From positions 3,286,001 to 3,350,000 of the forward strand of contig NZ_CP068760.1 of NCBI RefSeq assembly GCF_016775705.1: DNA of 64,000 nucleotides, read 5' to 3'. Each line of letters starts with the position of its first letter. Position 1 is the first letter of the stretch. Below, piece by piece: positions 37,461 through 53,353 of the stretch. A program made the translations under genes and the position numbers. The stretch is from Chryseobacterium cucumeris. Lineage in GTDB: Bacteria; Bacteroidota; Bacteroidia; Flavobacteriales; Weeksellaceae. Under the pieces are notes generated by a model. That model saw nothing but the letters and a program-made list of their open reading frames with translations. It was not told where the DNA came from and did not search any database.

Positions 37461-37482
37461 CATTTATTAAACTAGTTAAATG
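37461..37482. promoter_or_regulatory. Shared palindromic operator, detox operon 1
   Basis: Core TTTATTAAACTAGTTAAA, bounded by CA and TG. The identical 22 bases recur at 44167-44188 before the pirin operon. In both cases the site starts exactly 42 bases before the -7 box, and the flanking bases just downstream (CAGG-TTTC) are also alike. Confidence 0.75.
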
Positions 37483-37502
37483 CACAGGATTTCTGTTCAC
37501 TG

Positions 37503-37510
37503 TAATTTAG
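37503..37510 (+). promoter_or_regulatory. -7 box of detox operon 1
   Basis: TAATTTAG, one base off TAnnTTTG, 18 bases before the ATG at 37528. Confidence 0.45.
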
Positions 37511-37527
37511 CATCAAAATTAAAAGAC

Positions 37528-38460
37528 ATGGACAATAGAATTTTAGGTCTGCATCATATTACTGCTATTGCAGACAACGCCAAAAGAAATTTAGATTTTT
37601 ATACCAAAGTTTTAGGCGTAAGACTGGTAAAGAAAACTGTAAATTTTGATGATCCGGGAACGTATCATTTTTATTTCGGAAATGAAAACGGAACTCCGGG
37701 AACCATTCTTACATTCTTTCCGTGGGAAGGAATAGGAAAAGGAACCAATGGAAGCGGAATGGCTACTCATATCGGATATTCTGTACCGAAAGGAAGTCTT
37801 GACTTTTGGAAAAACCATTTACAAAACCTTAATGTAACCACGGAAGAAGGCGAAATATTCGGAGAAAAGATGATTTCTTTTAAAGATCCGGACGGACTTC
37901 AGTTACAGTTAATAGAACCATTAGTTGAAGACAACAGAAAAGTATGGACCACGGATGATATCAAAGATGAAAATGCATTAAAAGGTTTTCACAATGTCAC
38001 TCTAACCTTAAAAAAAGCAGATCCTACCATTAAAGTTCTGACCGATATTTTAGGATATGATTTGCAGAAACAGGAGGGAGAAAGATACAGATTAGCAACT
38101 GATGCTATTGATACCGCTAATATTGTTGATATTATTGAAAATGACACCATTTCGGCAGGTAGAAATGCAGCTGGAACCAATCACCATATTGCATTCAGAG
38201 TAAAAGATGATAATGTTTTGATGGAATATCGTGAGAAAGCCTTATCCGCAGGACTAAGCATCACACCAAAAATCAACAGAGATTATTTCTACTCACTGTA
38301 CTTCCGTGAGCCGGGTGGAGTTTTATTTGAAATTGCAACCGATAATCCTGGATTCACTGTAGATGAGCCTTTGGAAGAGTTGGGAACCAACCTTAAACTT
38401 CCTGTTCAATACCAAGGAATGCGTGAGAAAATAGAAGGAGTATTGCCGAACTTATCATAG
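37528..38460 (+). CDS. Ring-cleaving dioxygenase-like VOC protein (MhqO/MhqE type)
   Basis: 310 residues from the ATG at 37528, chosen over 37480 because that one lies inside the promoter. Two vicinal-oxygen-chelate repeats: L-G-L-H-H-I-T-A-I at 5 and L-V-K-K-T-V-N-F-D in the first, N-H-H-I-A-F and L-F-E-I-A-T-D-N-P-G-F in the second. His and Glu of these motifs form the metal site. Relatives in Bacillus (MhqO, MhqE) are induced by quinones and protect against them. First gene of an operon with a GNAT protein, a second VOC enzyme and an esterase. Controlled from the shared palindrome. Confidence 0.85.
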   Translation: MDNRILGLHHITAIADNAKRNLDFYTKVLGVRLVKKTVNFDDPGTYHFYFGNENGTPGTILTFFPWEGIGKGTNGSGMATHIGYSVPKGSLDFWKNHLQNLNVTTEEGEIFGEKMISFKDPDGLQLQLIEPLVEDNRKVWTTDDIKDENALKGFHNVTLTLKKADPTIKVLTDILGYDLQKQEGERYRLATDAIDTANIVDIIENDTISAGRNAAGTNHHIAFRVKDDNVLMEYREKALSAGLSITPKINRDYFYSLYFREPGGVLFEIATDNPGFTVDEPLEELGTNLKLPVQYQGMREKIEGVLPNLS

Positions 38461-38519
38461 GTCATCGGTCAGAACTTATAAAGATGCTAATTTTGAATTA
38501 ACAATTAAAAACAAGAAAA

Positions 38520-38816
38520 ATGGAAAGAACAGAAATAGTTTTAGAAGGAAGAAAAGGAGAGATTCAGCTTTTCTCAGACGATCATAAAGCAGGTAAAATG
38601 GACATATCAGTTATAGGAAAAAAACTGACCGTTTACCATACCGAAGTAAATCCGGAATATGAAGGAAAAGGCTTTGCCAAAATCTTACTGGAAAGACTGG
38701 TTTCCTACGCAAGAGAAAATGATTTGAAAATTCTACCGCTATGTCCTTATGTTCACGCTCAGTTCAAACGTCATCCGGAAGAATATAATGATGTATGGTT
38801 GAAGGAAGAACTGTAG
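38520..38816 (+). CDS. Small GNAT-type N-acetyltransferase (YjdJ-like)
   Basis: 98 residues, the short Gcn5-related form. The acetyl-CoA loop E-Y-E-G-K-G-F-A-K-I-L-L-E-R-L is clear, and the C-terminal C-P-Y-V-H-A-Q-F-K-R-H-P-E-E-Y is typical of the group. Substrate unknown. It sits 60 bases after the first dioxygenase-like gene and is followed by a long purine-rich tract before the second; co-transcription with both is likely. Confidence 0.85.
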   Translation: MERTEIVLEGRKGEIQLFSDDHKAGKMDISVIGKKLTVYHTEVNPEYEGKGFAKILLERLVSYARENDLKILPLCPYVHAQFKRHPEEYNDVWLKEEL

Positions 38817-39002
38817 GGAGTTTGAGATGCGGGATGCGGGTTTTCGAGATTCGAGATTCGAGTTTCAGGATACGGGTTTTTGAGATTCGAGTTTGAGAGT
38901 CTGAGGGGAAGAGGGTTTGAGAATCTTGAGCTAAAAACAGAAGATGAATAAAGTTATTCTCGAACTTATCAACTCGAATCCCGAACCCCGAAATCTCGCC
39001 TC
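38817..39002. repeat. Purine-rich tract and facing pyrimidine-rich tract, imperfect long hairpin
   Basis: 38817-38935 is a run of units such as GATTCGAGTTTGAGAG and GCGGGTTTTCGAG. 38968-39002 holds the opposite sense (CTCGAATCCCGAACCCCG). The two can pair imperfectly within the transcript between the GNAT gene and the next VOC gene. Confidence 0.55.
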
Positions 39003-39034
39003 CATTATAATAACCAATTAACAATTTTATCACA

Positions 39035-39988
39035 ATGAAACTTATCACAGGATTGCATCACGTTACGGCAATTACCGGCAATGCACAGGAAAATATAGAT
39101 TTTTATACCGGAGTTTTGGGGCTTCGATTGGTCAAAAAAACAGTCAATTTTGATTATTCAGATGTTTATCATTTTTATTTCGGTGACGAGTACGGAACAC
39201 CTGGAACGATTATGACTACTTTTCCCTATGGTAAAGATCTGATCAATGGCAGACATGGAAAAGGAATGCTTAACACCACTGCTTTTTCAGTTTCTATAGA
39301 TGCCCTGGATTATTGGATGAACCGTCTGGAACAGTTTAATATTCCCTTCAAACAGCCGCAGCAAAGATTTTCTGATGAAGTTTTCATTTATCTTGAAGAT
39401 TTTGACGGACTGGGATTGGAATTGGTTTTTAATGATAAAGACGAAAGAAAAGGTTATTATAATGGTTATATTCCAAAATATTATGCCATCAAAGGGATTC
39501 ATCATGTGGAAATCTGGCAGGATGCTTATGAAAGAACAGCAGCACTTCTGACCACCCAGATGGATCATAAAGTGATCAAAGAAAGCCCTGACCGATTGAG
39601 ACTGGGAACAGAAAATATGCCGGGGAAATATGTAGATCTGCTTTCTACCCCAAATGCTTTAAAAGGTTTAGCAGGAAGAGGTACCGTTCATCATGTGGCT
39701 TTTGCTACTCCCGACGCAGAGTCCCAGCTGGAAATGGTAAAGAGACTCAACACATACGGATTGGAGCATACCGAAGTGAAAGACAGAAAATATTTTACTT
39801 CCGTATATTTTAAAGAACCGGGAGGCGTTTTGTTTGAAATAGCAACTTCAGGCCCAGGGTTCGACGTGGATGAAGAAGCTGCATTTTTAGGTGAAGATCT
39901 GCAATTGCCGCTACAGTTTGAAAAAAGAAGAGAACGTTTGAAAGAAGTTCTTCCCAAAATCGATTATCCAACAGAAAAATTCAGATAG
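39035..39988 (+). CDS. Second ring-cleaving dioxygenase-like VOC protein
   Basis: 317 residues, clearly a paralogue of the product of 37528-38460: G-L-H-H-V-T-A-I-T-G-N-A-Q-E-N-I-D-F-Y and L-V-K-K-T-V-N-F-D are shared, with the second repeat keeping V-H-H-V-A-F and L-F-E-I-A-T-S-G-P-G-F. The metal-binding His, His and Glu appear intact. The two probably take different aromatic or quinone substrates. Followed after 5 bases by an esterase gene. Confidence 0.85.
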   Translation: MKLITGLHHVTAITGNAQENIDFYTGVLGLRLVKKTVNFDYSDVYHFYFGDEYGTPGTIMTTFPYGKDLINGRHGKGMLNTTAFSVSIDALDYWMNRLEQFNIPFKQPQQRFSDEVFIYLEDFDGLGLELVFNDKDERKGYYNGYIPKYYAIKGIHHVEIWQDAYERTAALLTTQMDHKVIKESPDRLRLGTENMPGKYVDLLSTPNALKGLAGRGTVHHVAFATPDAESQLEMVKRLNTYGLEHTEVKDRKYFTSVYFKEPGGVLFEIATSGPGFDVDEEAAFLGEDLQLPLQFEKRRERLKEVLPKIDYPTEKFR

Positions 39989-39993
39989 AAATA

Positions 39994-40614
39994 ATGAGTC
40001 ATACTTTAAATATAAAAACAGCAGGAATACCCTTAAATCAGGCGGAAAAAGCTTTGATCATGATTCACGGACGCGGAGGAAGTGCTCAGGATATTCTGAG
40101 TTTATCCCAGCATTTGAATGTAAAAGACTATGCACTTCTAGCCCCACAGGCTTTGAATCACAGCTGGTATCCTTTTTCATTTATAGCTCCGGTGGAACAA
40201 AACGAACCGTGGTTATCATCAGCTCTTGAAATGGTTGAAGAAACGGTAAAAGCGGTTGTCAATTCAGGAATAAAACCTGAAAATATATACTTTTTCGGAT
40301 TTTCCCAGGGAGCCTGTCTTACCCTTGAATTTTTAGCCCGTAATGCTCAGAAGTTCGGTGGAGCGGCAGCTATTATTGGTGGCGTGATTGGAGATAAAAT
40401 CAACCGTGAAAATTATAAAGGTGATTTTGCAGGGACTCCGGTTTTCCTGGGAACCAGCAATCCTGATTTTCATGTTCCGGTAGAAAGAGTATATGCTACA
40501 GCTAATATTTTAAGAGAAATGAATGCGGAGGTAACAGAAAAAGTATATGCCAATTTTGGACATTCTATTAACGAAGAAGAAATTGAAATAGCGAATTCAG
40601 TTATATTTAAATAG
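39994..40614 (+). CDS. Phospholipase/carboxylesterase-family alpha/beta hydrolase (MhqD-like)
   Basis: 206 residues. The nucleophile elbow G-F-S-Q-G-A lies at about residue 105; D in S-N-P-D-F-H-V-P and H in F-G-H-S-I complete the triad; the oxyanion region is I-H-G-R-G-G-S. This is the size and pattern of MhqD/YodD, which in Bacillus is coded beside the dioxygenase MhqE. Five bases separate it from the preceding VOC gene, so translation is likely coupled. Cytoplasmic. Its substrate is unknown. Confidence 0.85.
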   Translation: MSHTLNIKTAGIPLNQAEKALIMIHGRGGSAQDILSLSQHLNVKDYALLAPQALNHSWYPFSFIAPVEQNEPWLSSALEMVEETVKAVVNSGIKPENIYFFGFSQGACLTLEFLARNAQKFGGAAAIIGGVIGDKINRENYKGDFAGTPVFLGTSNPDFHVPVERVYATANILREMNAEVTEKVYANFGHSINEEEIEIANSVIFK

Positions 40615-40617
40615 TTT

Positions 40618-40780
40618 AACCACAAAAGTCACAAAAGATTTGATAAGTAAATATCGAGCGCTTAAAAAGAACACTTAAGTTTTATAAAAATCTTTGATTT
40701 TTCTCTCATGTGATCTTTATATTGTATATTATTAAACTTTACAAACATTTTAAAACAAAAACTTTGTGACTTTTGTGGTT
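40618..40780. repeat. 163-nt inverted-repeat element
   Basis: Ends in ACCACAAAAGTCACAAAAG and its complement ACTTTGTGACTTTTGTGGT (arms of about 19 bases). The middle is AT-rich with no frame. It lies directly after the esterase stop. A similar left end (AGCCACAAAAGTTTT) occurs at 47690. Confidence 0.55.
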
Positions 40781-40810
40781 ATTACATTTTTAAGTAACCT
40801 AGTGAAGTGG

Positions 40811-40877
40811 AGATTCCTACGGAATGGCAAAGTATGAGGATTAACTATCCATACAGATTGTCACTCCGTAGGAGTCT
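40811..40877. repeat. Dispersed 67-nt inverted repeat, copy b
   Basis: Left arm AGATTCCTACGGAATG, right arm CACTCCGTAGGAGTCT. The rest of 40781-40995 contains two copies of GGCTTTAGCCC-type hairpins (40904-40921 and 40944-40957) before the antiporter gene. Confidence 0.75.
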
Positions 40878-40995
40878 CAATAAATAAATTAACATTCAAT
40901 AGCGGTGGGCTTTAGCCCGCCTTTAAAAAAATAAATTTACCACTGGCTTTAGCCCAAACATAAATGATCAGAATCTGAAATCTAACTTCAAAAAC

Positions 40996-42606
40996 ATGCA
41001 CGAACAATTACTTTTAATATTAGGACTTTTATTACTTGTTATGCTGCTGGTCATGCTGGCACAACGGATCAAAATTGCCTATCCTATCTTTCTGGTACTT
41101 GCCGGATTGGGGATCAGCCTTATTCCCGGAGTCCCTGTTTTAAAGCTGGATCCGGAGATTATATTTCTGATTTTCTTACCACCTCTTTTATACGAAGCAG
41201 CCTGGTACACTTCATGGAATGATTTCTGGAAATGGAAACGTCCCATCAGCTTGTTGGCATTTGGTTTGGTATTTCTTACATCTTTGGTTGTTGCTTACAC
41301 TTCACAAATGCTGATTCCGGGATTTACGCTGGCTTTAGGCTTTTTATTGGGAGGAATTGTTTCGCCACCGGATGCAGTAGCAGCCACAACAGTTTTAAAA
41401 GGATTAAAAGTACCGAAACGTACCCTCGCTATACTGGAAGGAGAAAGTCTGATTAATGATGCCTCTTCACTGATCGTTTTCAGGTTTGCTCTGGCCGCTG
41501 TAATGACGGGTGCTTTCTCAATGCATGAAGCTACAGGACAGTTTTTTCTGGTAGCAGGAATGGGAATTGTCGTAGGAATTGCCGGAGCACATATTTTTTA
41601 TGCCATTCACCGTTTTTTACCTACAACACCTGCTATTGATGCGGCACTTACCGTAATGACGCCATATATTTTATTTCTTTCTGCAGAACATTTTCATTTT
41701 TCGGGAGTGATGGCGGTAGTGAGCGGAGGATTGTTTATGTCTTTCCGTGCTCATGAGATTTTCAAAACCGGAACTACGAGAATCAATATGACAGGAGTCT
41801 GGAACACCCTGATTTTTGTGATGAATGCTTTGGTTTTTGTATTAATAGGTCTTGAACTTCCTGATATAATCAATGGATTGGGTGAAATTTCAGTAATGGA
41901 AGGTATCAAATATGGTTTGGTTATAAGTTTGATTGTCATTGTGGTACGTCTTTTATGGATCTATCCCGTAGCTCATCTTCCAAGATGGTTCAGTGAAAAA
42001 GCCCGTCGTGATCCGAGTCCGGGATGGAAAAACCCCTTGATTATAGGATGGGCAGGAATGAGAGGAGTGGTCTCACTGGCAACAGCACTGTCCATTCCGG
42101 TTATGATGAATTCGCAGGCTGAATTTCCTATGAGAAATCTGATCATTTTTATCACATTTGTCGTCATTTTTGTGACATTAGTGTTTCAGGGACTTACCCT
42201 GCCCTTGATCATTAAATTAACCAAAATAGGGGAGATCGATCATATTTTGCCTTCTCACGAACAGCAGGCCGGGATTCAGATGAGACTGGATAAGCTTGCT
42301 GTACATAGGCTTGATAACGAATACAATGAGGTGTTGAACAGCAATAGTCTCCTTGAAAATCTTAAAAATACGCTGGAAAGTGATATCAAACTTCACCAGA
42401 ATCATCTCAATTCTATTGAAATGTGTACCAACAGGCAAAACGATATGGCCGAATATCATAAAGTGATGATGGATATATTTGCCTTACAGAGAAAAGAACT
42501 CTTTAAAATGAAACGCGAAAAACTTTTCAGTGATGACGAGATTCGAAAAGCAGAATCACAACTGGATCTGAATGAATTAAAAATTACAGGAAATAAACAT
42601 TTGTAG
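40996..42606 (+). CDS. Na+/H+ antiporter, CPA1 family
   Basis: 536 residues. Twelve or thirteen hydrophobic helices in the first 410 residues, then a cytoplasmic, charged and partly coiled-coil tail of about 120. The exchanger core is intact: S-P-P-D-A-V-A-A at about 131 and E-S-L-I-N-D-A-S-S-L at about 152, which carry the transport aspartates. Exchanges sodium (or potassium) for protons across the inner membrane. Its own transcription unit, preceded by dispersed repeats and followed by a purine-rich tract. Confidence 0.93.
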   Translation: MHEQLLLILGLLLLVMLLVMLAQRIKIAYPIFLVLAGLGISLIPGVPVLKLDPEIIFLIFLPPLLYEAAWYTSWNDFWKWKRPISLLAFGLVFLTSLVVAYTSQMLIPGFTLALGFLLGGIVSPPDAVAATTVLKGLKVPKRTLAILEGESLINDASSLIVFRFALAAVMTGAFSMHEATGQFFLVAGMGIVVGIAGAHIFYAIHRFLPTTPAIDAALTVMTPYILFLSAEHFHFSGVMAVVSGGLFMSFRAHEIFKTGTTRINMTGVWNTLIFVMNALVFVLIGLELPDIINGLGEISVMEGIKYGLVISLIVIVVRLLWIYPVAHLPRWFSEKARRDPSPGWKNPLIIGWAGMRGVVSLATALSIPVMMNSQAEFPMRNLIIFITFVVIFVTLVFQGLTLPLIIKLTKIGEIDHILPSHEQQAGIQMRLDKLAVHRLDNEYNEVLNSNSLLENLKNTLESDIKLHQNHLNSIEMCTNRQNDMAEYHKVMMDIFALQRKELFKMKREKLFSDDEIRKAESQLDLNELKITGNKHL

Positions 42607-42690
42607 CGGGTTTCGGGTTTGAGGGTAAGAGAGTGGGTGCGAGGTTTCGAGGTTTTGGATACGAGTGGGAGAGTATGAGGATGGGTGCGT
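42607..42690. repeat. Purine-rich low-complexity tract
   Basis: Units such as GAGGGTAAGAGAGTGGGTG and GAGGTTTCGAGGTTTT, beginning at the stop of the antiporter gene. Confidence 0.5.
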
Positions 42691-42719
42691 TTGAAATTAT
42701 AAGAGTGTAAATTATTACA

Positions 42720-42780
42720 GACAGAATGAACAAACTAAGCCCTTTATCTATTTTACACTATATCATTCCGCAGAAATCCA
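42720..42780. repeat. Dispersed 67-nt inverted repeat, copy h (decayed)
   Basis: The right arm TCATTCCGCAGAAATCC is clear; the left arm is reduced to ACAGAATGA. The spacer keeps the ACAAACTAAG type sequence of other copies. Confidence 0.5.
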
Positions 42781-42861
42781 AATCGTCATTTTACCCTTCA
42801 AGTAAACAATATAAACATTAAACTCTGAACCTTGAACTTTAAACTTTAAACATTGAACAAC

Positions 42862-43173
42862 ATGAAAACATTACATTTTTTAGTGATTGGAAAGAACCAG
42901 GAAATTCTGGATACTTTAAAAAGAATTATCGAAAATAATGAGGGCTGGACAGCAGAGATACAAAATGATGAAAATTTCTGCTATGAATACATAAAGGAAA
43001 ATACGGTGGACATTGTCCTTTTAAGCTCCGGCTTAGAAGATGATTTTGAGAAAGATATAAAAATATTTTGTGCCGGTTTGGATAAGGATGTTAAAGTAAT
43101 CGATCATTATGGAGGAGGAAGTGGACTTTTAAAGAACGAAGTTTACAGTCTTTTTCCTAATTTGCAGGGGTAA
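42862..43173 (+). CDS. Receiver-like protein lacking the phosphoacceptor site
   Basis: 103 residues from the ATG at 42862. The alternating strands and helices (H-F-L-V-I-G-K-N-Q-E-I-L-D-T-L-K-R-I-I, V-D-I-V-L-L-S-S-G, V-K-V-I-D-H-Y-G-G) resemble a response-regulator receiver fold, but the acidic pair of strand 1 reads I-G-K-N and the phosphorylated aspartate of strand 3 is replaced in L-L-S-S-G. It may be a pseudo-receiver. Ten bases before a Crp/Fnr regulator gene, with which it is probably co-transcribed. Function unknown. Confidence 0.6.
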   Translation: MKTLHFLVIGKNQEILDTLKRIIENNEGWTAEIQNDENFCYEYIKENTVDIVLLSSGLEDDFEKDIKIFCAGLDKDVKVIDHYGGGSGLLKNEVYSLFPNLQG

Positions 43174-43183
43174 ACTCTGCATT

Positions 43184-43768
43184 ATGTTCGAAAACATCAT
43201 CAAAAATATTACGCGATTTATTTCAATCACTCCCGAAGAAGAAAAAACTTTTACAGACCTGCTTGTCTGTCAGTCGTTTCCTAAAAAAACAGTTTTACTG
43301 AGAGAAGGAGAGATTTGCCAGTTTGAAGGGTATATTCATAAAGGATGTGTGAGAATGTATTGTTTGGATGATAATGGTTCCGAAGTAACGTTACTGTTTG
43401 CCATCGAAGATTGGTGGATCAGTGATATTGCATCATTTCATGAACAGAAGCCTTCTAAGGTTTTTATCGAAACACTGGAAGACTCGGAAATCTATATGTT
43501 GAATACTACAACAAAAGAAAAACTGCTGCAGGAAGTTCCCAAATTTGAAAGAGTTTTCAGAATGCTGGTTCAGAGGAACCTGGCAACCCTGCAAAGCCGA
43601 CTGGTGAATACCATTTCCAAGACTGCATCCGACAGATACCTTGAATTCATCAAAGTATACCCTTCCATCCCGCAAAGAGTAGCACAATACTACATTGCTT
43701 CTTACCTTGGGGTTTCAAAAGAATTTGTAAGCACCATTAGGAAGCGTCTTGCTTCAAAGGAGAAATAA
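43184..43768 (+). CDS. Crp/Fnr-family transcriptional regulator
   Basis: 194 residues. A cyclic-nucleotide-binding-like beta domain spans about 25-115 (F-P-K-K-T-V-L-L-R-E-G-E-I-C-Q-F), followed by a long helix and a C-terminal helix-turn-helix at about 165-190 (I-A-S-Y-L-G-V-S-K-E-F-V-S-T-I-R-K-R). The cAMP contact residues are not obvious, nor are the FNR iron-sulfur cysteines, so the signal is unknown. Target genes cannot be told; it lies between the two detox operons but nothing ties it to the shared palindrome. Confidence 0.88.
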   Translation: MFENIIKNITRFISITPEEEKTFTDLLVCQSFPKKTVLLREGEICQFEGYIHKGCVRMYCLDDNGSEVTLLFAIEDWWISDIASFHEQKPSKVFIETLEDSEIYMLNTTTKEKLLQEVPKFERVFRMLVQRNLATLQSRLVNTISKTASDRYLEFIKVYPSIPQRVAQYYIASYLGVSKEFVSTIRKRLASKEK

Positions 43769-43851
43769 ATCTTAGTTTTTTATACTTGCAGATTGCAGAG
43801 ATTTGCATGGGTTTTATAGGTGTGAATATTTCTGTGAAATTATAGTCACCC

Positions 43852-44022
43852 ATTTTATCGGAGATAAAATCCTTGCGCCTTAAAAATATTTAGCTTAAAA
43901 AACAACTCGCGTCTTTGCGTTTTCCAATTATTTTTTTGCTTATCATTCCTACAGAGGTTCCTAAGGAATGACACAGTTGAAATAACGGTCTTACCCACAC
44001 AGTTTGTCATTCCGTAGAATCT
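43852..44022. repeat. Composite dispersed element, copy c (hairpin, GCGCCTT/TTTGCG block, 67-nt inverted repeat)
   Basis: Begins with the perfect hairpin ATTTTATCGGAGATAAAAT, continues through GCGCCTTAAAAATATTTAG and GTCTTTGCGTTTTCCAA, and ends in the 67-nt inverted repeat (43954-44022). The same order occurs at 55777-55927 and 57687-57841. Confidence 0.7.
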
Positions 44023-44123
44023 AAATAGAGTTATTCTTTAAAATATTATATCAAATTAAATAGTTCCTAAGAGTAAAAAGACTTTTACACTTTCCAAAAA
44101 ATAACAATCCATTATAGTTATAC

Positions 44124-44157
44124 TGCCGAATACAAAAGTATCCGGCATTTTTTTTTG
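44124..44157 (+). terminator. Intrinsic terminator before the pirin operon
   Basis: Stem TGCCGAATAC / GTATCCGGCA (one mismatch) with a 4-nt loop, then ten T. Probably ends the Crp/Fnr transcript and insulates the operator 10 bases further on. Confidence 0.75.
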
Positions 44158-44166
44158 CTTCAAAGT

Positions 44167-44188
44167 CATTTATTAAACTAGTTAAATG
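44167..44188. promoter_or_regulatory. Shared palindromic operator, detox operon 2
   Basis: Identical over 22 bases to 37461-37482 (core TTTATTAAACTAGTTAAA). It starts 42 bases before the -7 box, covering the -33 region, where a repressor would block polymerase. Confidence 0.75.
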
Positions 44189-44208
44189 TGCAGGGTTTCC
44201 GGTCTCTC

Positions 44209-44216
44209 TAAATTTG
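44209..44216 (+). promoter_or_regulatory. -7 box of detox operon 2
   Basis: TAAATTTG, a full match to TAnnTTTG, 33 bases before the ATG at 44249. Confidence 0.6.
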
Positions 44217-44248: not shown

Positions 44249-45124
44249 ATGGACAGAAAAGATTTTTTAAAGAAAGGATTATTGGGAACAGGAATGTTTG
44301 TAGCATCAGCTTCTTTGGCCAGTGCTATGAAAAATGATATCGATGAGATCGAACCACTAGAACCGATCGGATACAATCATCTTCCCAATACAGAATCAAA
44401 AATAAAAGAAAACTCTGTGATTCACAGAGCTGATACAAGAGGGAAGGCAGATCACGGATGGCTGTTGAGCCAGCACACTTTCAGTTTTGCCAATTATTAT
44501 AATCCTGAAAGAATGCACTTTGGAGTATTGAGAGTCCTGAATGATGATAAAGTGGAAGCAGGAAGAGGTTTCGGAACCCACCCTCACGACAATATGGAAA
44601 TCATCAGTATTCCTTTGGAAGGTGACCTTGAACACAAAGACAGCATGGGAAATACAGCGGTGATCAGAAGCGGAGATATTCAGGTCATGAGTGCAGGAAC
44701 AGGAATTATGCACAGCGAATTCAACAAAAACAGTGATAAACTTGTAAAATTCCTTCAGATCTGGATTTATCCGAAAAAAAGAAATGTGACGCCGAGATAT
44801 GATCAGATTACATTAGATAAAACCAAAGGTCATAATCAATTTCAACAGATTCTTTCCCCCAATGCAGATGACGAAGGTGTATGGATCCATCAGGACGCAT
44901 GGTTTCATCTGGGAACTTTTGAGGAGAATAAAGAAACACAGTATCAAATCAGAAAAAAAGGAAACGGAGTCTATGCTTTTATTTTGAAGGGAAGCGCAGA
45001 AATAGGCGGTGAGATTATAGAAGAACGAGATGGATTCGGAGTCTGGGATATTCAGGAAATTACGATCAAAACCCTTCAGGAAGGTACAGAAATCCTTTTA
45101 ATGGAAGTACCGATGACACTATAA
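44249..45124 (+). CDS. Pirin-family protein with export signal
   Basis: 291 residues. Pirin bicupin: the metal ligands are in H-P-H-D-N-M-E at about 111-117 and G-I-M-H-S-E-F at about 152-158, the His-His-His-Glu set of pirins, some of which are quercetin dioxygenases. Pirins are usually cytoplasmic; here the first 30 residues (D-R-K-D-F-L-K-K-G-L-L-G-T-G-M-F-V-A-S-A-S-L-A-S-A) look like a signal of the Tat kind, with R-K in place of R-R. First gene of the operon running to 50691. Export is an inference from this signal. Confidence 0.88.
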   Translation: MDRKDFLKKGLLGTGMFVASASLASAMKNDIDEIEPLEPIGYNHLPNTESKIKENSVIHRADTRGKADHGWLLSQHTFSFANYYNPERMHFGVLRVLNDDKVEAGRGFGTHPHDNMEIISIPLEGDLEHKDSMGNTAVIRSGDIQVMSAGTGIMHSEFNKNSDKLVKFLQIWIYPKKRNVTPRYDQITLDKTKGHNQFQQILSPNADDEGVWIHQDAWFHLGTFEENKETQYQIRKKGNGVYAFILKGSAEIGGEIIEERDGFGVWDIQEITIKTLQEGTEILLMEVPMTL

Positions 45125-45164: not shown

Positions 45165-45854
45165 ATGAAAAAATTAATCCTATCATTTGCAGCTGGTTTA
45201 TTATCATTAACTGCATCAGCTCAAAACCCTGGAAAATCATTATTAAATCCTACCAATCACGCCGTAGTACTCATCGACCACGAAGGTCAAATGGCTTTTG
45301 CAACCAAAAGCATCAGCATGGAAGAGTTAAGAAACAATGTGGCACTGGTTGCAGGTGGATCAAAAATATTCAATGTTCCTACAGTAGTAACAACGGTGGC
45401 AGAAAAGTCATTCAGCGGACCTGTTTTCCCGGAAATTTCAGAAGTATATCCGCAAGCAACCAGTGGATATGTAGACAGAACTACCATGAATACATGGGAA
45501 GACGTTAATGCCCATAAAGCCATTACAGGAAAAAATAAAAAGAAACTGGTTTTCGCAGGATTATGGACAAGTGTATGTATCGTAGGACCTGTATTATCAG
45601 CGATTGACGAAGGTTACGATGTATATGTAGTAACAGATGCTTCTGGGGATATTTCTAAAGAAGCGCACGATCAGTCAATCACCCGTATGGTTCAGGCAGG
45701 AGCACATCCTATCACTTCTGTTCAGTATGTATTGGAACTGCAGAGAGACTGGGCTAGAAAAGAAACATACAAACCGGTTAATGATCTGATGAAAAAACAT
45801 GGTGGAGCTTATGGTATTGGAATTCAGTATGCTCAGGAAATGTTAAAACACTAA
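45165..45854 (+). CDS. YcaC-like isochorismatase-family hydrolase, exported
   Basis: 229 residues with a Sec signal ending T-A-S-A-Q (residue 20). The rest follows the YcaC branch of the cysteine hydrolase/isochorismatase fold: V-V-L-I-D-H-E-G-Q-M with catalytic Asp38, and A-G-L-W-T-S-V-C-I-V-G-P with nucleophile Cys138, then V-V-T-D-A-S-G-D. The basic residue of the triad could not be fixed (Lys81 or Arg105). Family members hydrolyse amides or related bonds. 40 bases after pirin and 58 before the amidohydrolase, so one transcript. Confidence 0.88.
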   Translation: MKKLILSFAAGLLSLTASAQNPGKSLLNPTNHAVVLIDHEGQMAFATKSISMEELRNNVALVAGGSKIFNVPTVVTTVAEKSFSGPVFPEISEVYPQATSGYVDRTTMNTWEDVNAHKAITGKNKKKLVFAGLWTSVCIVGPVLSAIDEGYDVYVVTDASGDISKEAHDQSITRMVQAGAHPITSVQYVLELQRDWARKETYKPVNDLMKKHGGAYGIGIQYAQEMLKH

Positions 45855-45912: not shown

Positions 45913-47685
45913 ATGAAACTACTGAATATATTTACCCTTTCCACAGTTTTGGCAGCAGGAATTCTGAATGCTCAGAAAGCAGACATGATCATTACCAATG
46001 GGAAGATTACCACAATGGATGATAAGAATCCTGAAGTACAGGCTGTGGCCATCAAAGACCATAAAATCTTACAGGTAGGAACCAATGCCCAGATTTTAAA
46101 ATTAAAAAATGGCAATACAAAAGTCATTGATGCTAAAAGAAACAGAGTGATTCCAGGCTTATTTGACAGCCATTTGCATGTAATCAGAGGAGGACGATTT
46201 TACAATACCGAACTTCGTTGGGATGGTGTGAAATCATTAAAAAGAGCATTGGAAATGCTGAAAGAACAGGCTCAGAGAACACCGAAGGGACAATGGGTAA
46301 GAGTCATCGGAGGCTGGAATGAATATCAGTTTGAAGAAAAAAGACTTCCCACACTGGCTGAAATTAATGAAGCTACGGGAAATGTGCCTACTTTCATCAT
46401 GTATCTCTATGGAAAAGCCTGGCTGAACAAAGCCGGATTAAAAGAACTGAATATCAATGGAGATACCCCAAACCCTGCTCAAGGTTTAATTGAAAAAGAC
46501 AATAACGGAGATCCTACAGGATTATTGGTGGCAGAACCGAATGCATTTATTCTTTATTCAACATTAGCGAAACTGCCGGAACTGAAAGAAGAAGAAAAAG
46601 TAAATTCTACCCTTCAATACATGACGGAACTGAACAGATTGGGAGTGACTGCAGTAATGGACGCAGGTGGAGGATTCCAGAATTTTCCGGATGACTACGG
46701 AACAACAGATCAGCTGAACAAACAGGGGAAAATTACCGTTCGACTTCCTTACTATTTATTTGCCCAGAAAAAAGGATCTGAGCTTGCCGATTATACCAAA
46801 TGGATTGGAATGGTAGAAATTGACGACCATGGTCACAATGATTTTAATGAAATCGATTATCATGTCAACGGTGGAGGGGAAAACCTCGTATCAGACGGAG
46901 CCGACTTTGAAAACTTTCTTTTCCCAAGACCCGAACTTCCGGCTACGATGGAAAAAAACATGAAAGACGTAGTAAGTCTTCTGGTAAAAAACAAATGGCC
47001 TTTCAGAATTCATGCAACCTATAATGAAAGTATCACCAGATTTTTAAATGTCATTGAAGAAGTAAACAAAGAAACTCCTTTGAACGGATTAGTATGGTTT
47101 ATCGACCACGCAGAAACCGTTACCGAAGATAATATGAAAAGAATCAAAGCGTTGGGCGGAGGAATTGCAGTACAGCACAGAATGGCGTATCAGGGAGAAA
47201 GTTTCATCCACAGATATGGTAAAAAACCGGCTTTAGCATCTCCTCCAGTGAAAAAAATGCTGGAAATGGGAATTCCTGTAGGATTGGGAACAGACGGAAC
47301 CAGAGTGGCAAGTTATAACCCATGGGTAGCTTTATACTGGATCACCACAGGAAAAACAATAGGAGGAACTCAGGTAATGGGCAAAGAAAATACGCTGGAC
47401 AGAAAAACGGCTTTATCACTTTCTACTTATGGCGGATACGAACTCATCAAAGACTATCAGAAAGGAAAAATACAGAAAGGATACTTTGCAGATCTTACCA
47501 TTCTGGATAAAGATTATTTCACAGTCAATGATGAAGACATCAAAAACATTACCTCAAAACTGACGATCGTAGATGGGAAAGTAGTGTACGGAGATGAAAC
47601 CTACAAAACAGAAGCACCCGCACGACTTCCAGTCATCCCGGACTGGTCACCTGTAAAATATTACGGAGGCTATCAGACAAAATAA
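45913..47685 (+). CDS. YtcJ-like amidohydrolase, exported
   Basis: 590 residues. Signal peptide ends near G-I-L-N-A-Q (about 21). Amidohydrolase-superfamily barrel of the YtcJ/metal-dependent type: F-D-S-H-L-H-V at about 86-92 gives the HxH metal site, R-I-H-A-T-Y-N at about 362, W-F-I-D-H-A-E-T at about 395 and G-L-G-T-D-G-T-R at about 457 carry the later His and Asp ligands. Substrate unknown; hydrolysis of amides or N-formyl groups is usual. Together with the preceding genes it makes a set of periplasmic hydrolases. Confidence 0.9.
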   Translation: MKLLNIFTLSTVLAAGILNAQKADMIITNGKITTMDDKNPEVQAVAIKDHKILQVGTNAQILKLKNGNTKVIDAKRNRVIPGLFDSHLHVIRGGRFYNTELRWDGVKSLKRALEMLKEQAQRTPKGQWVRVIGGWNEYQFEEKRLPTLAEINEATGNVPTFIMYLYGKAWLNKAGLKELNINGDTPNPAQGLIEKDNNGDPTGLLVAEPNAFILYSTLAKLPELKEEEKVNSTLQYMTELNRLGVTAVMDAGGGFQNFPDDYGTTDQLNKQGKITVRLPYYLFAQKKGSELADYTKWIGMVEIDDHGHNDFNEIDYHVNGGGENLVSDGADFENFLFPRPELPATMEKNMKDVVSLLVKNKWPFRIHATYNESITRFLNVIEEVNKETPLNGLVWFIDHAETVTEDNMKRIKALGGGIAVQHRMAYQGESFIHRYGKKPALASPPVKKMLEMGIPVGLGTDGTRVASYNPWVALYWITTGKTIGGTQVMGKENTLDRKTALSLSTYGGYELIKDYQKGKIQKGYFADLTILDKDYFTVNDEDIKNITSKLTIVDGKVVYGDETYKTEAPARLPVIPDWSPVKYYGGYQTK

Positions 47686-47728: not shown

Positions 47729-47812
47729 CGTTCCAACTGAAGGGGTAAAAATCCCTCCCTTGGAGGGTGGCAAAAATTCAAAGAATTATTGACGGGGTGG
47801 TTTTACACTCAA
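47729..47812. repeat. Third dispersed repeat, copy 1
   Basis: Contains TCCAACTGAA, then GGGTGGCAAAAATTCAAAG, then TTGACGGGGTGGTTTTAC. A second copy is at 55977-56053 and the last part recurs at 57850-57873. Confidence 0.6.
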
Positions 47813-47908: not shown

Positions 47909-48340
47909 ATGAAAAAGTTAATCCATATCATCACCAATACCAATCCGGGAAGAAAATTAACCGATGCTGCACTTTTAGTCTTCAGAGTTTTCCTTTCCGT
48001 AGAATTAATCGTAGCCCACGGATTAAAAAAAATAGGAGTAGGTGTTTCAGAAGCAGAGCAGGTTCCGAACCCGCTGCACCTTCCGGAAGCATTCAACAGT
48101 CTTTTTGCTGATGCAGCCAATCTGGTATTTCCGGTATTTGTGATCTTTGGTTTTTTCACAAGAATTGCAGTGCTGCCAATTTTAGCGGTGACGCTTACAG
48201 GATACTTTATTCTCCATTGGAATGATGCTTTACTGGTAAAAGACACTCCTTTTATGTACAGCTTGTGTTATCTGTTTTTACTGTTTATGGGAGCTGGAAG
48301 ATATTCTGTGGATCATTATTTAACAAAGAAATCATCATGA
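47909..48340 (+). CDS. DoxX-family membrane protein
   Basis: 143 residues with four hydrophobic helices (residues about 20-38, 70-88, 90-108 and 115-133), the DoxX pattern (F-R-V-F-L-S-V-E-L-I-V-A-H-G-L-K-K-I). DoxX-type MhqP is coded with the dioxygenase MhqO in the quinone regulon of Bacillus, and DoxX relatives in other bacteria take part in redox defence. Here it is the fourth gene of the pirin operon; its stop overlaps the next start (ATGA). Confidence 0.85.
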   Translation: MKKLIHIITNTNPGRKLTDAALLVFRVFLSVELIVAHGLKKIGVGVSEAEQVPNPLHLPEAFNSLFADAANLVFPVFVIFGFFTRIAVLPILAVTLTGYFILHWNDALLVKDTPFMYSLCYLFLLFMGAGRYSVDHYLTKKSS

Positions 48341-49704
48341 AAAAACTGATTGCCATTGTACTGTTGCTGCAGATTTTTATTCCACTTCAAATTTCTGCCC
48401 AGTTCAAGCTGATGAGGTTTGATGAAGATTATGCTTCCTATAAAGACTCTGCAAAAACTTTTTACAACTCCATCAAATACATACCTATTGCAGAAAAAAG
48501 CAACCATTATCTTTCATTGGGGGGAGAAGCAAGACTGGAATTTGTAGATTTTAATAACGAAGATTGGGGAAGAATGGGAATTGGAAGCAATCCTTTTCTG
48601 ATTCAAAGATACAGTGTACATGCAGATCTGCATCTGGGCTCAAGAGTAAGAATTTTCGGACAGGTGAGAAGTGCATGGGAAAATGGAAGAAAGAACGGTC
48701 CGAGACCTATTGACGAAGATCATTTGAATATTCAGAATCTTTTCATTGATGTTGATATTTTGAAAAATGATAAAGAAAAGTTGACCGTACGTGCCGGAAG
48801 ACAGGAACTTGATTATGGAAGCGGAAGACTGATCTCAGTAAGAGAAGGTCCGAATTTAAGACTCTATTTTGATGGATTAAAATTCATGTACAAAAGAGGG
48901 AACTTCAGATCTGATGCCTTTATGATGGCCGCCAGTGAAATCAATCCAGGAGCATTCGATAACAAATCTTCAAAATCAATCAACCTCTGGGGAAGTTACA
49001 ACACATGGATTATTCCCAGAAGCGGAAATCTGGAGCTCTATTATCTCGGGATTCACAGAAAGGATGTACGTTTTGAAGACGGGCTTTCCGATGAGAACAG
49101 ACATACTTTTGGCGGAAGATTCTGGAAATATGGAGGAGGTTTTATTTACAATTTCGAAGCAGCCTACCAGTTTGGTAATTTTAATAAAGGAAATATCAGC
49201 GCATGGACGGCTTCTGCAGACATCGGATATATGTTTGAAAATGTAAAAGGAAAACCGACCATCAACCTTAGAAACGATTATATTTCAGGAGACAGCAATA
49301 AAGGAGATGGAACATTGGGAACATTCAATCCATTGTATCCGAAAGGAGGTTATTTTGGATTTAATCCTCAGATTGGTCCGGTGAATTTAATTGATATCCA
49401 TCCCTATGCAACGATTGATTTAGGTAAAAAAATAACGGTGCAGGCAGACGTAGTTTTCAACTGGAGATATTCTATCCAGGACGGGATTTACAGACCCAGC
49501 GGAACACTAAACCTGGCGTCTTCCAACTCAAAAAAGAGATACATCGGAACCGCATTTTTAGGAAGTTTCAATTATAAGATCAATCCATTTTTAACCTTTA
49601 ATACAGGAATACAGTATTTCAATACCGGAGCTTTCATTAACGATGTAATCGACAACCACAAAGACGGACTCTTCATCAATTCCAGAATTGTATTTAAATT
49701 TTAA
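48337..49704 (+). CDS. Alginate-export-type outer-membrane porin
   Basis: About 455 residues from the ATG at 48337, which starts a good Sec signal (M-K-K-L-I-A-I-V-L-L to I-S-A-Q) and overlaps the DoxX stop. The mature part looks like a single-chain beta-barrel of the alginate_exp type: S-L-G-G-E-A-R-L-E-F, V-R-A-G-R-Q-E-L-D-Y-G-S-G-R-L-I-S-V-R-E-G-P-N-L-R, and a C-terminal strand ending in F-K-F. These barrels pass small organic anions or sugars. In this operon it may let the substrate of the periplasmic hydrolases in. Confidence 0.85.
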   Translation: MKKLIAIVLLLQIFIPLQISAQFKLMRFDEDYASYKDSAKTFYNSIKYIPIAEKSNHYLSLGGEARLEFVDFNNEDWGRMGIGSNPFLIQRYSVHADLHLGSRVRIFGQVRSAWENGRKNGPRPIDEDHLNIQNLFIDVDILKNDKEKLTVRAGRQELDYGSGRLISVREGPNLRLYFDGLKFMYKRGNFRSDAFMMAASEINPGAFDNKSSKSINLWGSYNTWIIPRSGNLELYYLGIHRKDVRFEDGLSDENRHTFGGRFWKYGGGFIYNFEAAYQFGNFNKGNISAWTASADIGYMFENVKGKPTINLRNDYISGDSNKGDGTLGTFNPLYPKGGYFGFNPQIGPVNLIDIHPYATIDLGKKITVQADVVFNWRYSIQDGIYRPSGTLNLASSNSKKRYIGTAFLGSFNYKINPFLTFNTGIQYFNTGAFINDVIDNHKDGLFINSRIVFKF

Positions 49705-49962: not shown

Positions 49963-50691
49963 ATGAAAAATACATTAAAACACTCACTGATAATTGCAGC
50001 TTTAGCATTATCTACCTTAAACTTTGCACAAACTACAACCACAGCTCCTGCAAAAACAACAGCCATCGGAACTTCCAAAACCTGGGGAACCGTAGACGGA
50101 ATTTCCATGATAGGATTGGTACAGGGCCCATCGTCTGCTGACGCCCAGCTTCAGGTAGCTTGTGTTTTCGAATATACAGAAGGTGATATTTTCAGTCCTC
50201 AGGCATTACCCGCTAAATTGAACGGATTGGTTCACCTGGATGAGGCTTTAAAAGGAGAACTGACCAACCTTAGAAAAACAGGACAGTTTCAGGGACATTC
50301 CTTGGAAACGATTTTAATTACGCCTCCTGCAGGATCGATGTCTGCAAAGAAATTATTGCTGATCGGTTTAGGTGACCGTAATAAATTTACTCCTGATTTA
50401 ATGACTTCCGTAGGCGAAGTGGCAGCCCGTCAAGCTATGAGATTAGGCGTTACCAATTTTGCATTCGCCAGCGATCTGAAAGACGCCGGAATAGATTCTC
50501 CAACTGCTTTGGTAGCGGGAAATGTAGTAAGAGGAATTGTACATGCCAACCGTTCTGAAAATTACCTGAAAGAACACAAATTATCTACCACCAAAAAATT
50601 AGAAAAAGTATATCTTCTGGCTGGTCCTGCCTTCTTTGAAACTGCAGGCGGAGGAATTTCCGATGCTATCTCAGAAGTAAAAAAGAAATAA
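49963..50691 (+). CDS. Exported M17 (leucyl aminopeptidase) N-terminal domain protein without catalytic domain
   Basis: 242 residues with a signal peptide ending N-F-A-Q (about 23). The body (G-Q-F-Q-G-H-S-L-E-T, K-K-L-L-L-I-G-L-G-D-R-N-K-F, A-R-Q-A-M-R-L-G-V) matches the N-terminal macro-like domain of M17 aminopeptidases, which are about 480 residues. The metal-binding catalytic half is absent, and the frame ends cleanly at a stop with a terminator at 50721. So it is not an active M17 peptidase; it may be a binding domain used on its own. Last gene of the second detox operon. Confidence 0.8.
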   Translation: MKNTLKHSLIIAALALSTLNFAQTTTTAPAKTTAIGTSKTWGTVDGISMIGLVQGPSSADAQLQVACVFEYTEGDIFSPQALPAKLNGLVHLDEALKGELTNLRKTGQFQGHSLETILITPPAGSMSAKKLLLIGLGDRNKFTPDLMTSVGEVAARQAMRLGVTNFAFASDLKDAGIDSPTALVAGNVVRGIVHANRSENYLKEHKLSTTKKLEKVYLLAGPAFFETAGGGISDAISEVKKK

Positions 50692-50776: not shown

Positions 50777-53353
50777 ATGAAAATAAATCAATTACTAAAT
50801 AATATTTTTTCTTTCCTTATAGGATTGGGCATATTAATTATACTTACACCTTTCATAGAGGGTTTTTTAGATAAATCAATTGATAGCTTTAAATTTGATA
50901 AAATAAATGAGTCAGTTCTGTTAGACGTTATATTGTTATTAGCTTTATGTTTATATACATCGATTTGTGTTAGTAAATGGAAAGAGCATGTGCCTAATAA
51001 TATAACAACATATTTTTTTCTTTCGATAATCATATTTTATACTTATGAAAGATATTTTAATGAACATTATGATTTTCTAAATTTCAAAATACATAATTCG
51101 TTATTCTATTTTGATATTATTTTTCCAATTGTTATATTATATCTAGGAAATTATTTGAAGTTTTTTGCAGAAGAATTCTTTAGTATAAAAAAGAATATAC
51201 TTTACGAAGATTCTCCAATTAAAGATGAAAAAGACAATGAATTAGGGCCAGGATTTTCCAAAACAGTAAAAAAGATTGAAACTATAGTTAATGAAAATAA
51301 CTTTGTGACTTCCTATACTATTGGAATTAATAGTGAATGGGGTGGAGGAAAATCTACTGTTTTAGCAATGTTAAAAAAAAGATTTGAAGATAATCAAAAT
51401 GTAGCTATTATAGATTTTAATCCATGGATGGGATTTGATGAAAAAGTATTTGTAAAAGATTTTTTTAATTCACTTTCAGAAGCATTAACAGAAAATAATA
51501 TCTCATCTGATATATCTCATTATTCAGAGGAGTTAATTAATGTCACAGATAATTCTCTTTTAAAATCAATAAAAGCTATTTTTTTTAGAGAAAAATCTTT
51601 AGAAAATCATTTTAATAATATTAATGAGAAAATAAAATTATTAAATAAAAAATTAATTATTGTTGTTGATGATATAGACAGGTTAGATAAGGAGGAAGTA
51701 TTTCAACTATTAAAATTAATACGAAATACAGCAAACTTTTCTAATACATTTTTTATTGTGGCATATGATAGAGAGTATATAATAAGTAGTATAAGTGGTG
51801 TAAATGAATATTTAGCTGTTAACTATTTAGATAAAATAATCAATACGGAACTTACATTGCCATATTATGATAGAAATATTCTTAAAGAAATTTTTAAAAA
51901 TAAACTTATTGAGAAAATAGGTGAAGAATATAGAATTAGAGTGACTTACGCTTTAGATATGGGAATGGGATATTCTCAAACTTTCGATAATAATGAGAAT
52001 ATATTAAATGACTTTACTATTTGGATTTCTAATATTCGACAAATAAAAAAAATGATTAATTCTATTTATATTAATTTCAATGGCTTTTTTAATGAAATCA
52101 ATTTTACAGATTTAATTTATTTAGAATTATTGAAATTGCATCATCCTTATTTATATAAATCAATCTATAATAAAAAAGATATAATATTCAGGGAGACAAA
52201 AGGGAAACTCTATCTTGAAAAGATTAACAAAGATCCGGAAGAAGGTATGGATAATACAGTATTTGGTAGGATTTTAAAAGATTACTGTAATGGTCGTAAA
52301 ATAGGAGATAATGATAAAGAGTCAATTTATTCAATCTTTACTAATTTATTTTCAATTTATAAAAATAATATGATGATAAATCTAGATAGAGGAAATGATT
52401 TAGATGAAAAGCTTTCCATTTCATATTCTTCTAAATTTGAAAGATACTTTGCTCAATATATATTTCGAGGAAATATTTCCGAGAATGACTTTAACGTTTT
52501 ATTAAATATTGGAGAAAACGAAAGAAGAAAAATGGTTATAGATTTAATAGATAATGGTAAAGAAAAGGATCTTAAATTTAGATTTTTAACAGATTTCTCA
52601 TATAAAAATAAACAAGAATTCGAAAATACAATTAAAACTATTTTACAGTTAGTAAATACAAACTCACGAATTAATCCAGAATATAAAATTGGATATGAAG
52701 AAAGGAAATTTAAATATAAGATTCAAGAATATTCAGGAAATGAAAAATTTGTAAATTTATATGAATCAAAAGAAGAGCTCAAACAATTTATTAATGGAGT
52801 TTTTTTAGAGGCTGAATATCCTTATTTATTTGAATCATCAGTATTAAGGGATATTAATTTAAATCTTTATAAAGGTAGTACAATATTCTCATTAAATAAT
52901 AAAGAAATTAATATTCTTCTAAAAAGCTATTTTATGACATATTTATATTTTACTGAATATTTTGATTCTAATTTTTTCCATTTACTTATAAATTGTAAAA
53001 AAATTATGTATTCAGGTAATCGGTCAAAATATAATCGAAAAATAAGATTAGATAATGATATTAAGGACATTATAATTGAGAAATTAGAAGATGATAATAA
53101 TTCTTTGTTTTATATGAAATCTCTTATAGATTACGAATATGATAACATTGTAGGTATAAGAAAAGAATCTATAATAGAAATATTTGATTCAATGGAAAAT
53201 TTTGAAAAATTAATTTTAATGAAAATTGATGAAAATGCTTTAGATGCTAAAAAAGAATTTAAATATTTTTATTATAATGTGAGAGCTTATAATTGGAAAG
53301 CTATTAATTATGATTTTAAGTTTTTCGATTTTTCTGAAGGATATGTACTATGA
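50777..53353 (+). CDS. Membrane-anchored KAP-family P-loop ATPase, solitary, candidate defence gene
   Basis: 858 residues. Four hydrophobic helices lie at about 7-28, 50-66, 77-92 and 110-130, so the N-terminus is membrane-bound. The ATPase follows: Walker A ends in W-G-G-G-K-S (Lys192), Walker B is I-I-V-V-D-D-I-D-R (Asp298/299) with the D-D-h-D-R signature of KAP NTPases. The 450 C-terminal residues are charged, Asn/Lys/Ile-rich and match nothing I know; this is the likely sensor or effector. The gene is far more AT-rich than its neighbours, has its own promoter and stands between a finished operon and topB, the picture of a late insertion. It is only distantly like QatA and has no partner genes. 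Known KAP proteins include phage-exclusion factors, so a defence role is plausible but unproven. Confidence 0.8.
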   Translation: MKINQLLNNIFSFLIGLGILIILTPFIEGFLDKSIDSFKFDKINESVLLDVILLLALCLYTSICVSKWKEHVPNNITTYFFLSIIIFYTYERYFNEHYDFLNFKIHNSLFYFDIIFPIVILYLGNYLKFFAEEFFSIKKNILYEDSPIKDEKDNELGPGFSKTVKKIETIVNENNFVTSYTIGINSEWGGGKSTVLAMLKKRFEDNQNVAIIDFNPWMGFDEKVFVKDFFNSLSEALTENNISSDISHYSEELINVTDNSLLKSIKAIFFREKSLENHFNNINEKIKLLNKKLIIVVDDIDRLDKEEVFQLLKLIRNTANFSNTFFIVAYDREYIISSISGVNEYLAVNYLDKIINTELTLPYYDRNILKEIFKNKLIEKIGEEYRIRVTYALDMGMGYSQTFDNNENILNDFTIWISNIRQIKKMINSIYINFNGFFNEINFTDLIYLELLKLHHPYLYKSIYNKKDIIFRETKGKLYLEKINKDPEEGMDNTVFGRILKDYCNGRKIGDNDKESIYSIFTNLFSIYKNNMMINLDRGNDLDEKLSISYSSKFERYFAQYIFRGNISENDFNVLLNIGENERRKMVIDLIDNGKEKDLKFRFLTDFSYKNKQEFENTIKTILQLVNTNSRINPEYKIGYEERKFKYKIQEYSGNEKFVNLYESKEELKQFINGVFLEAEYPYLFESSVLRDINLNLYKGSTIFSLNNKEINILLKSYFMTYLYFTEYFDSNFFHLLINCKKIMYSGNRSKYNRKIRLDNDIKDIIIEKLEDDNNSLFYMKSLIDYEYDNIVGIRKESIIEIFDSMENFEKLILMKIDENALDAKKEFKYFYYNVRAYNWKAINYDFKFFDFSEGYVL

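Follow-up and report, generated by a model that had tools for sequence, protein, structure and literature searches.

Two detoxification operons in a 64,000-nt stretch of the Chryseobacterium cucumeris genome (assembly GCF_016775705.1, contig NZ_CP068760.1, positions 3,286,001 to 3,350,000; hereafter the window) are preceded by an identical 22-bp site. Comparisons with related genomes make it very probable that this site is bound by CRPL, a Crp-like regulator encoded between the operons, and that CRPL activates both of them in a class II manner. A CRPL dimer would bind the CTAG-centred near-palindrome at -41.5 and recruit RNA polymerase to the two promoters, each with a -7 box and without a TTTG box at -33. 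This would turn on both operons; in relatives the regulator would also act on further promoters, in cis as well as in trans. That CRPL binds DNA, that it activates and does not repress, and that it answers to an electrophile or (hydro)quinone and not to cAMP are inferences.

An identical site at the class II position of two promoters

The proposed regulatory elements are as follows.

37461..37482, + strand: proposed activator site 1, identical to site 2, with its centre between 37473/37474 (-41.5)
37485..37488, + strand: CAGG element of operon 1, -30 to -27
37503..37510, + strand: -7 box TAATTTAG of operon 1
43184..43768, + strand: Crp-like regulator CRPL (PF00027; Foldseek matches to 3dn7 and CRP/FNR; co-occurrence with the site)
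44167..44188, + strand: proposed activator site 2, identical to site 1, with its centre between 44179/44180 (-41.5)
44191..44194, + strand: CAGG element at site 2, -30 to -27, read from the sequence
44209..44216, + strand: -7 box TAAATTTG of operon 2

The site, CATTTATTAAACTAGTTAAATG, has the same letters at 37461-37482 and 44167-44188, and the identity stops directly at both edges. A recheck of the sequence bore out the starting observation of the initial annotation, namely identical 22-mers that each begin 42 bases ahead of a -7 box. From the composition of the window, ~0.001 pairs of identical 22-mers are expected; the 7 other repeated 22-mers within it all come from dispersed elements. When up to three mismatches are allowed in the window alone, the two matches are less striking (at least two matches in 7/100 shuffles). 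The description of the site as a palindrome holds when it is centred between CT and AG, where ATTAAACT and AGTTAAAT pair at 7 of 8 positions, as read from the sequence.

Across the 4,813,364-base genome the 18-base core is present in two exact copies, one copy with one mismatch and three with two mismatches. None of the four inexact copies, the one on the minus strand included, is followed by a TAnnTTTG box at the proper distance; the genome-wide search for sites near -7 boxes that had been suggested at the outset returned a correctly spaced box behind the two window copies only. The one-mismatch copy at 2342651, considered as a third site, was taken as chance for want of a correctly spaced -7 box. 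The repetition of the site is no local accident, because the exact 18-mer is found in 83 of 148 Chryseobacterium genomes, 66 of them with at least two copies; reversing the pattern gave a single match in the whole set. With up to one mismatch allowed, the site is present in 95 of these genomes.

According to the available text of a 5'-end mapping study in F. psychrophilum, the -7 box of flavobacteria occupies positions -12 to -5 (PMC9723704), and the centre of the site therefore falls at -41.5, the class II activator position. Transcription of the two operons is accordingly predicted to begin near 37515 and 44221. To describe the promoters we used the 167 distinct sites that de-duplication left from the fetched loci, of which 142 are exact and 25 have one mismatch. 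In 124 of these promoters a strict TAnnTTTG begins exactly 22 bases past the 18-mer; it begins at no other offset within ~100 bases. The looser TAnnTT stands at the same offset in 164. The expected position of a -33 box carries no TTTG. The -30 to -27 element reads CAG in 113 promoters and CAGG in 59, and CAGG elsewhere between offsets +6 and +30 occurs 0-1 times per offset. CAGG is also present in 6/8 paralogue promoters and in 3/12 other-family promoters inspected. The element may be a contact for RNA polymerase; we know of no flavobacterial promoter element that resembles a CAG(G) at a fixed distance.

A Crp-like protein encoded between the operons

CRPL comprises 194 amino acids (aa). Its N-terminal part matches the cyclic-nucleotide-binding-type beta roll of the Crp/Fnr superfamily above the cut-off (PF00027, E 1.4e-10), and Foldseek matches its model to 3dn7, CRP, FNR and NtcA, with alignments of 183-208 columns to CRP/FNR/NtcA and 139-140 to 3dn7. 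The model has C-terminal helices at residues 120-145, 148-158, 168-175 and 179-192; its mean predicted local distance difference test (pLDDT) score is 72.8, and the blocks from residue 131 on score 53-67. Membership of CRPL in the Crp/Fnr superfamily is supported for the sensor domain. The solved structure closest to CRPL by sequence (E 3e-53) and by fold is 3dn7, a Cytophaga hutchinsonii cyclic nucleotide binding regulatory protein, known here by its molecule name.

In CRP, cAMP is contacted by G71, E72 and R82. The residues of CRPL that align with them, judged by eye in a profile alignment, are not conserved; control by cAMP was rejected on this ground, and cAMP is an unlikely signal for CRPL. 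Sensing by a thiol switch was considered as well. Cys45 and Cys55 are conserved in 90/90 orthologue rows each at ≥67% identity and in 13/14 and 14/14 rows at 48-58%; both are frequent among remoter relatives too (6/9 and 4/9), so their conservation is not discriminating and the idea was set aside. An in-frame TAG was reported for three CRPL orthologues (G057, G105, G130). Of the two inspected, G105 and G130, one has the TAG at the second-last codon and the other is open across the matched stretch.

Gene and site occur together in the genus

Orthologues of CRPL (≥67% identity) are clearly apart from its paralogues (≤46%) in the 148 genomes. Gene and exact site are both present in 83 genomes, the gene without the exact site in 1, the exact site without the gene in 0, and neither in 64. 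The single gene-only genome (G104) has a one-mismatch copy 72 bases past the gene. The initial annotation had placed the regulator outside the window, which is not supported: the CRPL gene lies within it and accompanies the site in 83 of 84 genomes. As a predictor of the site, the pirin gene PIR (≥81%) is poorer than CRPL, with 4 gene-only and 2 site-only genomes, and the dioxygenase gene VOC1 is poorer than PIR, with 0 and 14.

The 80 loci fetched around genes related to CRPL (1,566,560 bases) hold 122 exact and 22 one-mismatch copies, and 74 of them have at least one copy with ≤1 mismatch; the reversed pattern is absent from the same loci with up to two mismatches allowed. The 167 sites precede PIR (72), VOC1 (61), the isochorismatase-family gene ISO (18), which in some relatives thus has a copy of its own, RidA-type genes (10; PF01042), the antiporter gene (2), the 103-aa orphan (1), the Crp-like gene itself (1) and others (2). 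Some copies are remote from the regulator gene and speak for action in trans: exact sites stand ahead of PIR at distances of 254 kb (G021) and 233 kb (G064), ahead of ISO 1.33 Mb away (G053), and ahead of VOC1 on a different contig (G110, a draft genome). One-mismatch copies 93 bases ahead of the orphan-regulator pair in L044 and ~290 bases ahead of the regulator in L187 suggest autoregulation in these two loci.

Relatives in other families

We searched 296 genomes of the order (E ≤ 1e-55) and identified 8 CRPL relatives (48-57% identity) in two other families. In all 8 the gene is closely followed by the motif TTG-N2-CTA-[GCT]-TTCAATG, and a -7 box comes at the same spacing; the fit is exact in 7 and has one mismatch in 1, and the reversed control gave 0. 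The next gene encodes a pirin in 7 of the 8, followed by a gene for YceI (identified by Pfam in L176) or for a nitroreductase (likewise, in L182). With the other-family relatives at 48-58% identity the site takes the form TT[GA]nnCTAnTTCAATG, at the same spacing and mostly ahead of pirin genes.

A class-wide pattern, built from those motifs and the Chryseobacterium site, was run on 395 genomes of the class and gave 9 matches in 7 genomes. Eight of the matches lie in front of pirin, VOC1 or YceI genes, in their promoters. The ninth, in G532, lies inside an open reading frame (ORF) that reads as an efflux pump and was taken as chance. G640, G651 and G540 represent two families outside the design of the pattern, and all three have the gene (E 4.8e-95, 2.6e-93 and 3.8e-78, respectively); in G651, two pirin promoters with a match are on other contigs than the gene.

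A paralogue with a separate site and co-varying helix

The C. cucumeris genome contains a second module at C1:1329845-1331474 (L231), made up of an isochorismatase-type gene and a Crp-like paralogue. This CRPL paralogue (42% identity; C1:1329845-1330408) lies beside an isochorismatase-type gene other than ISO, and its promoter combines the perfect palindrome TTTGAACTAGTTCAAA with TAATTTTG at the same spacing. Allowing ≤1 mismatch, the promoter pattern occurs in 69 of the 148 genomes, with 0 matches of the reversed control. At least 52 paralogue genes are among the matches listed, 44 of them with the pattern within 4 kb; 28 of the 72 places with the pattern are away from any listed paralogue, 26 of these in genomes without a listed one.

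Thirty paralogue loci were compared. Nine were taken before the site search (helix and site both present in 7, both absent in 2). A group of 8 comprises every locus without a nearby site, two of which belong to the first nine; 7 of the group have another helix and 1 has a changed core. A further 14, plus the locus of the window genome itself, were taken for having the site. The helix HEFLSKIR goes with the site in 23/23 loci, unaltered in 22 and with one change in its core in the other; different helices go with it in 0/7. Among the CRPL relatives, the helix is SKEFVSTIR in 90/90 orthologue rows at ≥67% identity, whose sites read TTA...AAA, and [AP]EFLSK[IV]R in 14/14 rows at 48-58%, whose sites read TT[GA]...CAA; these rows are not all distinct loci, and the 14 include three duplicates. 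The paralogue helix HEFLSKIR pairs with TTG/CAA sites. Residues 179, 180 and 184 align, by eye, with Arg180, Glu181 and Arg185 of CRP, which contact bases.

We propose that the site form TTAAACTAGTTAAA belongs to CRPL and TTGAACTAGTTCAA to the paralogue. The helix-site code is a correlation over few independent changes, one that holds both between families and between paralogues of the same genome. The chances are about even that these proteins form a Bacteroidota family of Crp-like activators with a readable code on a CTAG core at -41.5, in which Lys184 would correspond to TTG...CAA and Thr184 (with Lys179 and Val182) to TTA...AAA; the two coexisting paralogues would then keep separate sites, as if the helix of the detoxification regulator and its entire set of promoters had moved jointly, for insulation from the sister protein. 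With helix and site co-varying between two paralogues of one genome, the insulation of duplicated regulators is open to testing with natural proteins.

Arguments against activation by CRPL and alternative explanations

Several observations weigh against CRPL as the activator of both operons. The presumed helix-turn-helix (HTH) part of the model has a low pLDDT (the blocks at 53-67), and Pfam finds no HTH domain in CRPL. The Fisher p of 1e-41 for the association of gene and site was computed without correction for phylogeny, and the co-occurrence is partly co-inheritance because gene and site usually share one cluster. Of 64 genomes without the gene, 11 hold a single one-mismatch copy; these copies were taken as chance because the reversed pattern occurs at a similar rate. 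Six of the 80 gene loci show no copy with ≤1 mismatch in the fetched DNA, and in L038, L041 and L054 an extra gene (LuxR-type by Pfam in L041) separates the regulator from PIR. Three genomes (G039, G046, G067) that keep PIR while gene and exact site are gone were considered as natural knockouts and rejected, since regulator and PIR site seem to have been deleted together and the losses are therefore not independent: G046 and G067 apparently share one deletion that left behind traces of the right half-site and the beginning of the gene (by eye), and in G039 only 5 bases separate the orphan from PIR. The class-wide pattern was designed after some of the loci it finds had been seen and is not blind there; its reversed control gave 3 matches, and G532, whose match was discarded, nevertheless has a weaker CRPL relative (E 1.9e-60, 39%). 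Finally, co-transcription of CRPL with operon 1 is uncertain because the 382-bp gap between the esterase and antiporter genes holds an inverted repeat with 43-nt arms (window 40600-40798).

CRPL might bind the site and repress: sitting at the promoter's upstream edge, it would block RNA polymerase until released by an electrophile. Genes for detoxification are often under repressor control. Both activation and repression are reported, in the available text, for the Bacteroidota Crp-like protein BT4338 (PMC6989115). However, a centre at -41.5, a fixed spacing to the -7 box and the lack of a -33 TTTG make up an activator-dependent geometry, and a repressor needs no single spacing; repression by CRPL is thus improbable. 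The initial annotation had assigned both operons to one repressor, perhaps of the MarR or TetR type. One shared factor is indeed probable, but such a repressor, encoded elsewhere, is a very unlikely candidate. The gene set resembles the MhqR regulon, yet the accessible account puts the MhqR operator at -6 to +12 (PMC6798810), against -41.5 here, and both the co-occurrence and the helix co-variation indicate CRPL; MarR/TetR repression was abandoned as the main explanation for these reasons. The window has 52 non-overlapping ORFs of ≥80 aa; a Pfam scan of 51 of them found no true MarR/TetR gene near the sites, the rest of the genome not being searched. Apart from CRPL, the scan picked up just two transcription factors. 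One is an Lrp/AsnC protein (24349-24819; 12.6 kb away) with an HTH that exceeds the cut-off of the Pfam MarR model too (26.6 vs 24.6 bits); the other is an AraC protein (56759-57610), likewise >12 kb from any of the sites.

The similarity of sites 1 and 2 extends somewhat beyond the site itself (CAGG and the -7 region), as would be expected of a duplicated promoter segment kept by descent without a dedicated regulator. Such an origin is hardly credible: the 18-mer is nearly invariant while the upstream flanks are weakly conserved over the 167 promoters, the site is kept at separate promoters 0.2-1.3 Mb off, and diverged forms of it persist in other families.

Comparison with known systems

We propose that the detoxification regulon works like a class II Crp/Fnr-dependent regulon, for which the CRP/FNR-dependent promoters of E. 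coli are the reference in site geometry and activation mode. The systems are alike in the Crp-like fold of the regulator and in a roughly palindromic site centred at -41.5, the geometry here being taken from sequences of this genus and the start position from F. psychrophilum. They differ in the -7 box that replaces the -10 box, the CTAG core that replaces TGTGA/TTGAT and the additional CAGG, and CRPL gives no sign of control by cAMP or Fe-S. BT4338, the master regulator of B. thetaiotaomicron, is the nearest described case in the phylum known to us. In the accessible part of its description it is likewise a Bacteroidota Crp-like protein, has a 22-bp site 5' of a putative -7 box and is argued not to sense cAMP; in contrast to CRPL with its few detoxification promoters, it recognizes another site (wwwTATGTTnTAnAACATAwww), controls carbohydrate genes and has 834 bound locations (PMC6989115).

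Judged from sequence, the detoxification regulon is not an MhqR system, because position and regulator type differ. In both systems a single regulator, here a proposed one, governs genes for a dioxygenase and a carboxylesterase, and VOC1 is close to MhqO. The text available describes MhqR of Bacillus and Staphylococcus as a repressor of the MarR type whose operator spans -6 to +12 (PMC6798810); here the proposed regulator is a Crp-like protein at -41.5, and pirin, isochorismatase and RidA genes are added. There is no MarR-type repressor gene in or beside the regulon, the only match to the MarR model among the 51/52 window ORFs being the Lrp/AsnC protein 12.6 kb off, and the site, centred at -41.5, does not overlap the presumed transcription start. 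A search by title and start of abstract, with most subscription journals outside its coverage, found no description of the regulon or the motif among the papers listed. To our knowledge, detoxification regulators in Bacteroidota are largely undescribed; the analysis supplies the gene, the exact site, the promoter geometry and a gene list across several families.

Genes of the operons and the putative signal

The genes in and between the two operons are listed below.

37528..38460, + strand: VOC1, MhqO-like ring-cleaving dioxygenase (PF00903; 3oaj MhqO, E 1.3e-84)
38520..38816, + strand: small GNAT-type acetyltransferase (PF14542)
39035..39988, + strand: VOC2, second VOC-superfamily protein (PF00903)
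39994..40614, + strand: carboxylesterase/phospholipase, distantly MhqD-like (PF02230)
40996..42606, + strand: Na+/H+ antiporter-like protein (PF00999)
42862..43173, + strand: conserved 103-aa orphan directly 5' of the regulator (no Pfam match)
44249..45124, + strand: PIR, pirin/quercetinase-type bicupin (PF02678, PF17954)
45165..45854, + strand: ISO, isochorismatase-family hydrolase, YcaC-like (PF00857)
45913..47685, + strand: amidohydrolase family 3 protein (PF07969)
47909..48340, + strand: DoxX-family membrane protein (PF07681)
48340..49704, + strand: alginate-export-type, porin-like outer membrane protein (PF13372), order kept in relatives
49963..50691, + strand: protein with peptidase M17 N-terminal domain (PF02789), kept in the operon of relatives

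The likeness of gene content to the MhqR quinone response, noted in the initial annotation, is upheld by VOC1, whose closest solved structure is B. subtilis MhqO (3oaj), with a dichlorohydroquinone dioxygenase (4huz) third. The MhqD-like esterase of that comparison does belong to PF02230, but its likeness to MhqD is distant: it scores 31.9 bits against the NCBIfam equivalog model, far under the 325-bit cut-off. PIR matches quercetin 2,3-dioxygenase (6uts) and YhhW (1tq5) with E 1.6e-62, and ISO scores 140 bits against the NCBIfam YcaC model, under the cut-off of 310 bits. Together, the putative targets (MhqO-like dioxygenase, pirin, isochorismatase and RidA, and elsewhere YceI, nitroreductase and pentose-phosphate genes) fit a response to electrophile or quinone stress, and a quinone or other electrophile is a plausible signal. 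In 6 of 40 fetched regions (L044, L047, L048, L052, L055, L185), PIR is followed by Gnd, Zwf and Pgl, all three enzymes of the oxidative pentose-phosphate branch (Pfam on L048 proteins), which would tie NADPH supply to the response.

The 103-aa orphan travels with the regulator in many loci, and a distant relative (36-38%) lies near a pirin gene in another family. The 43-nt inverted repeat may terminate operon 1 ahead of the regulator or be a small mobile element. Dispersed repeats of the window lie at 43850, 55775 and 57687 and at 47763 and 56009, one of them being the palindrome ATTTTATCGGAGATAAAAT. Two KAP-family P-loop NTPases (PF07693) are encoded at 18173-20053 and 50777-53353, the latter just behind operon 2.

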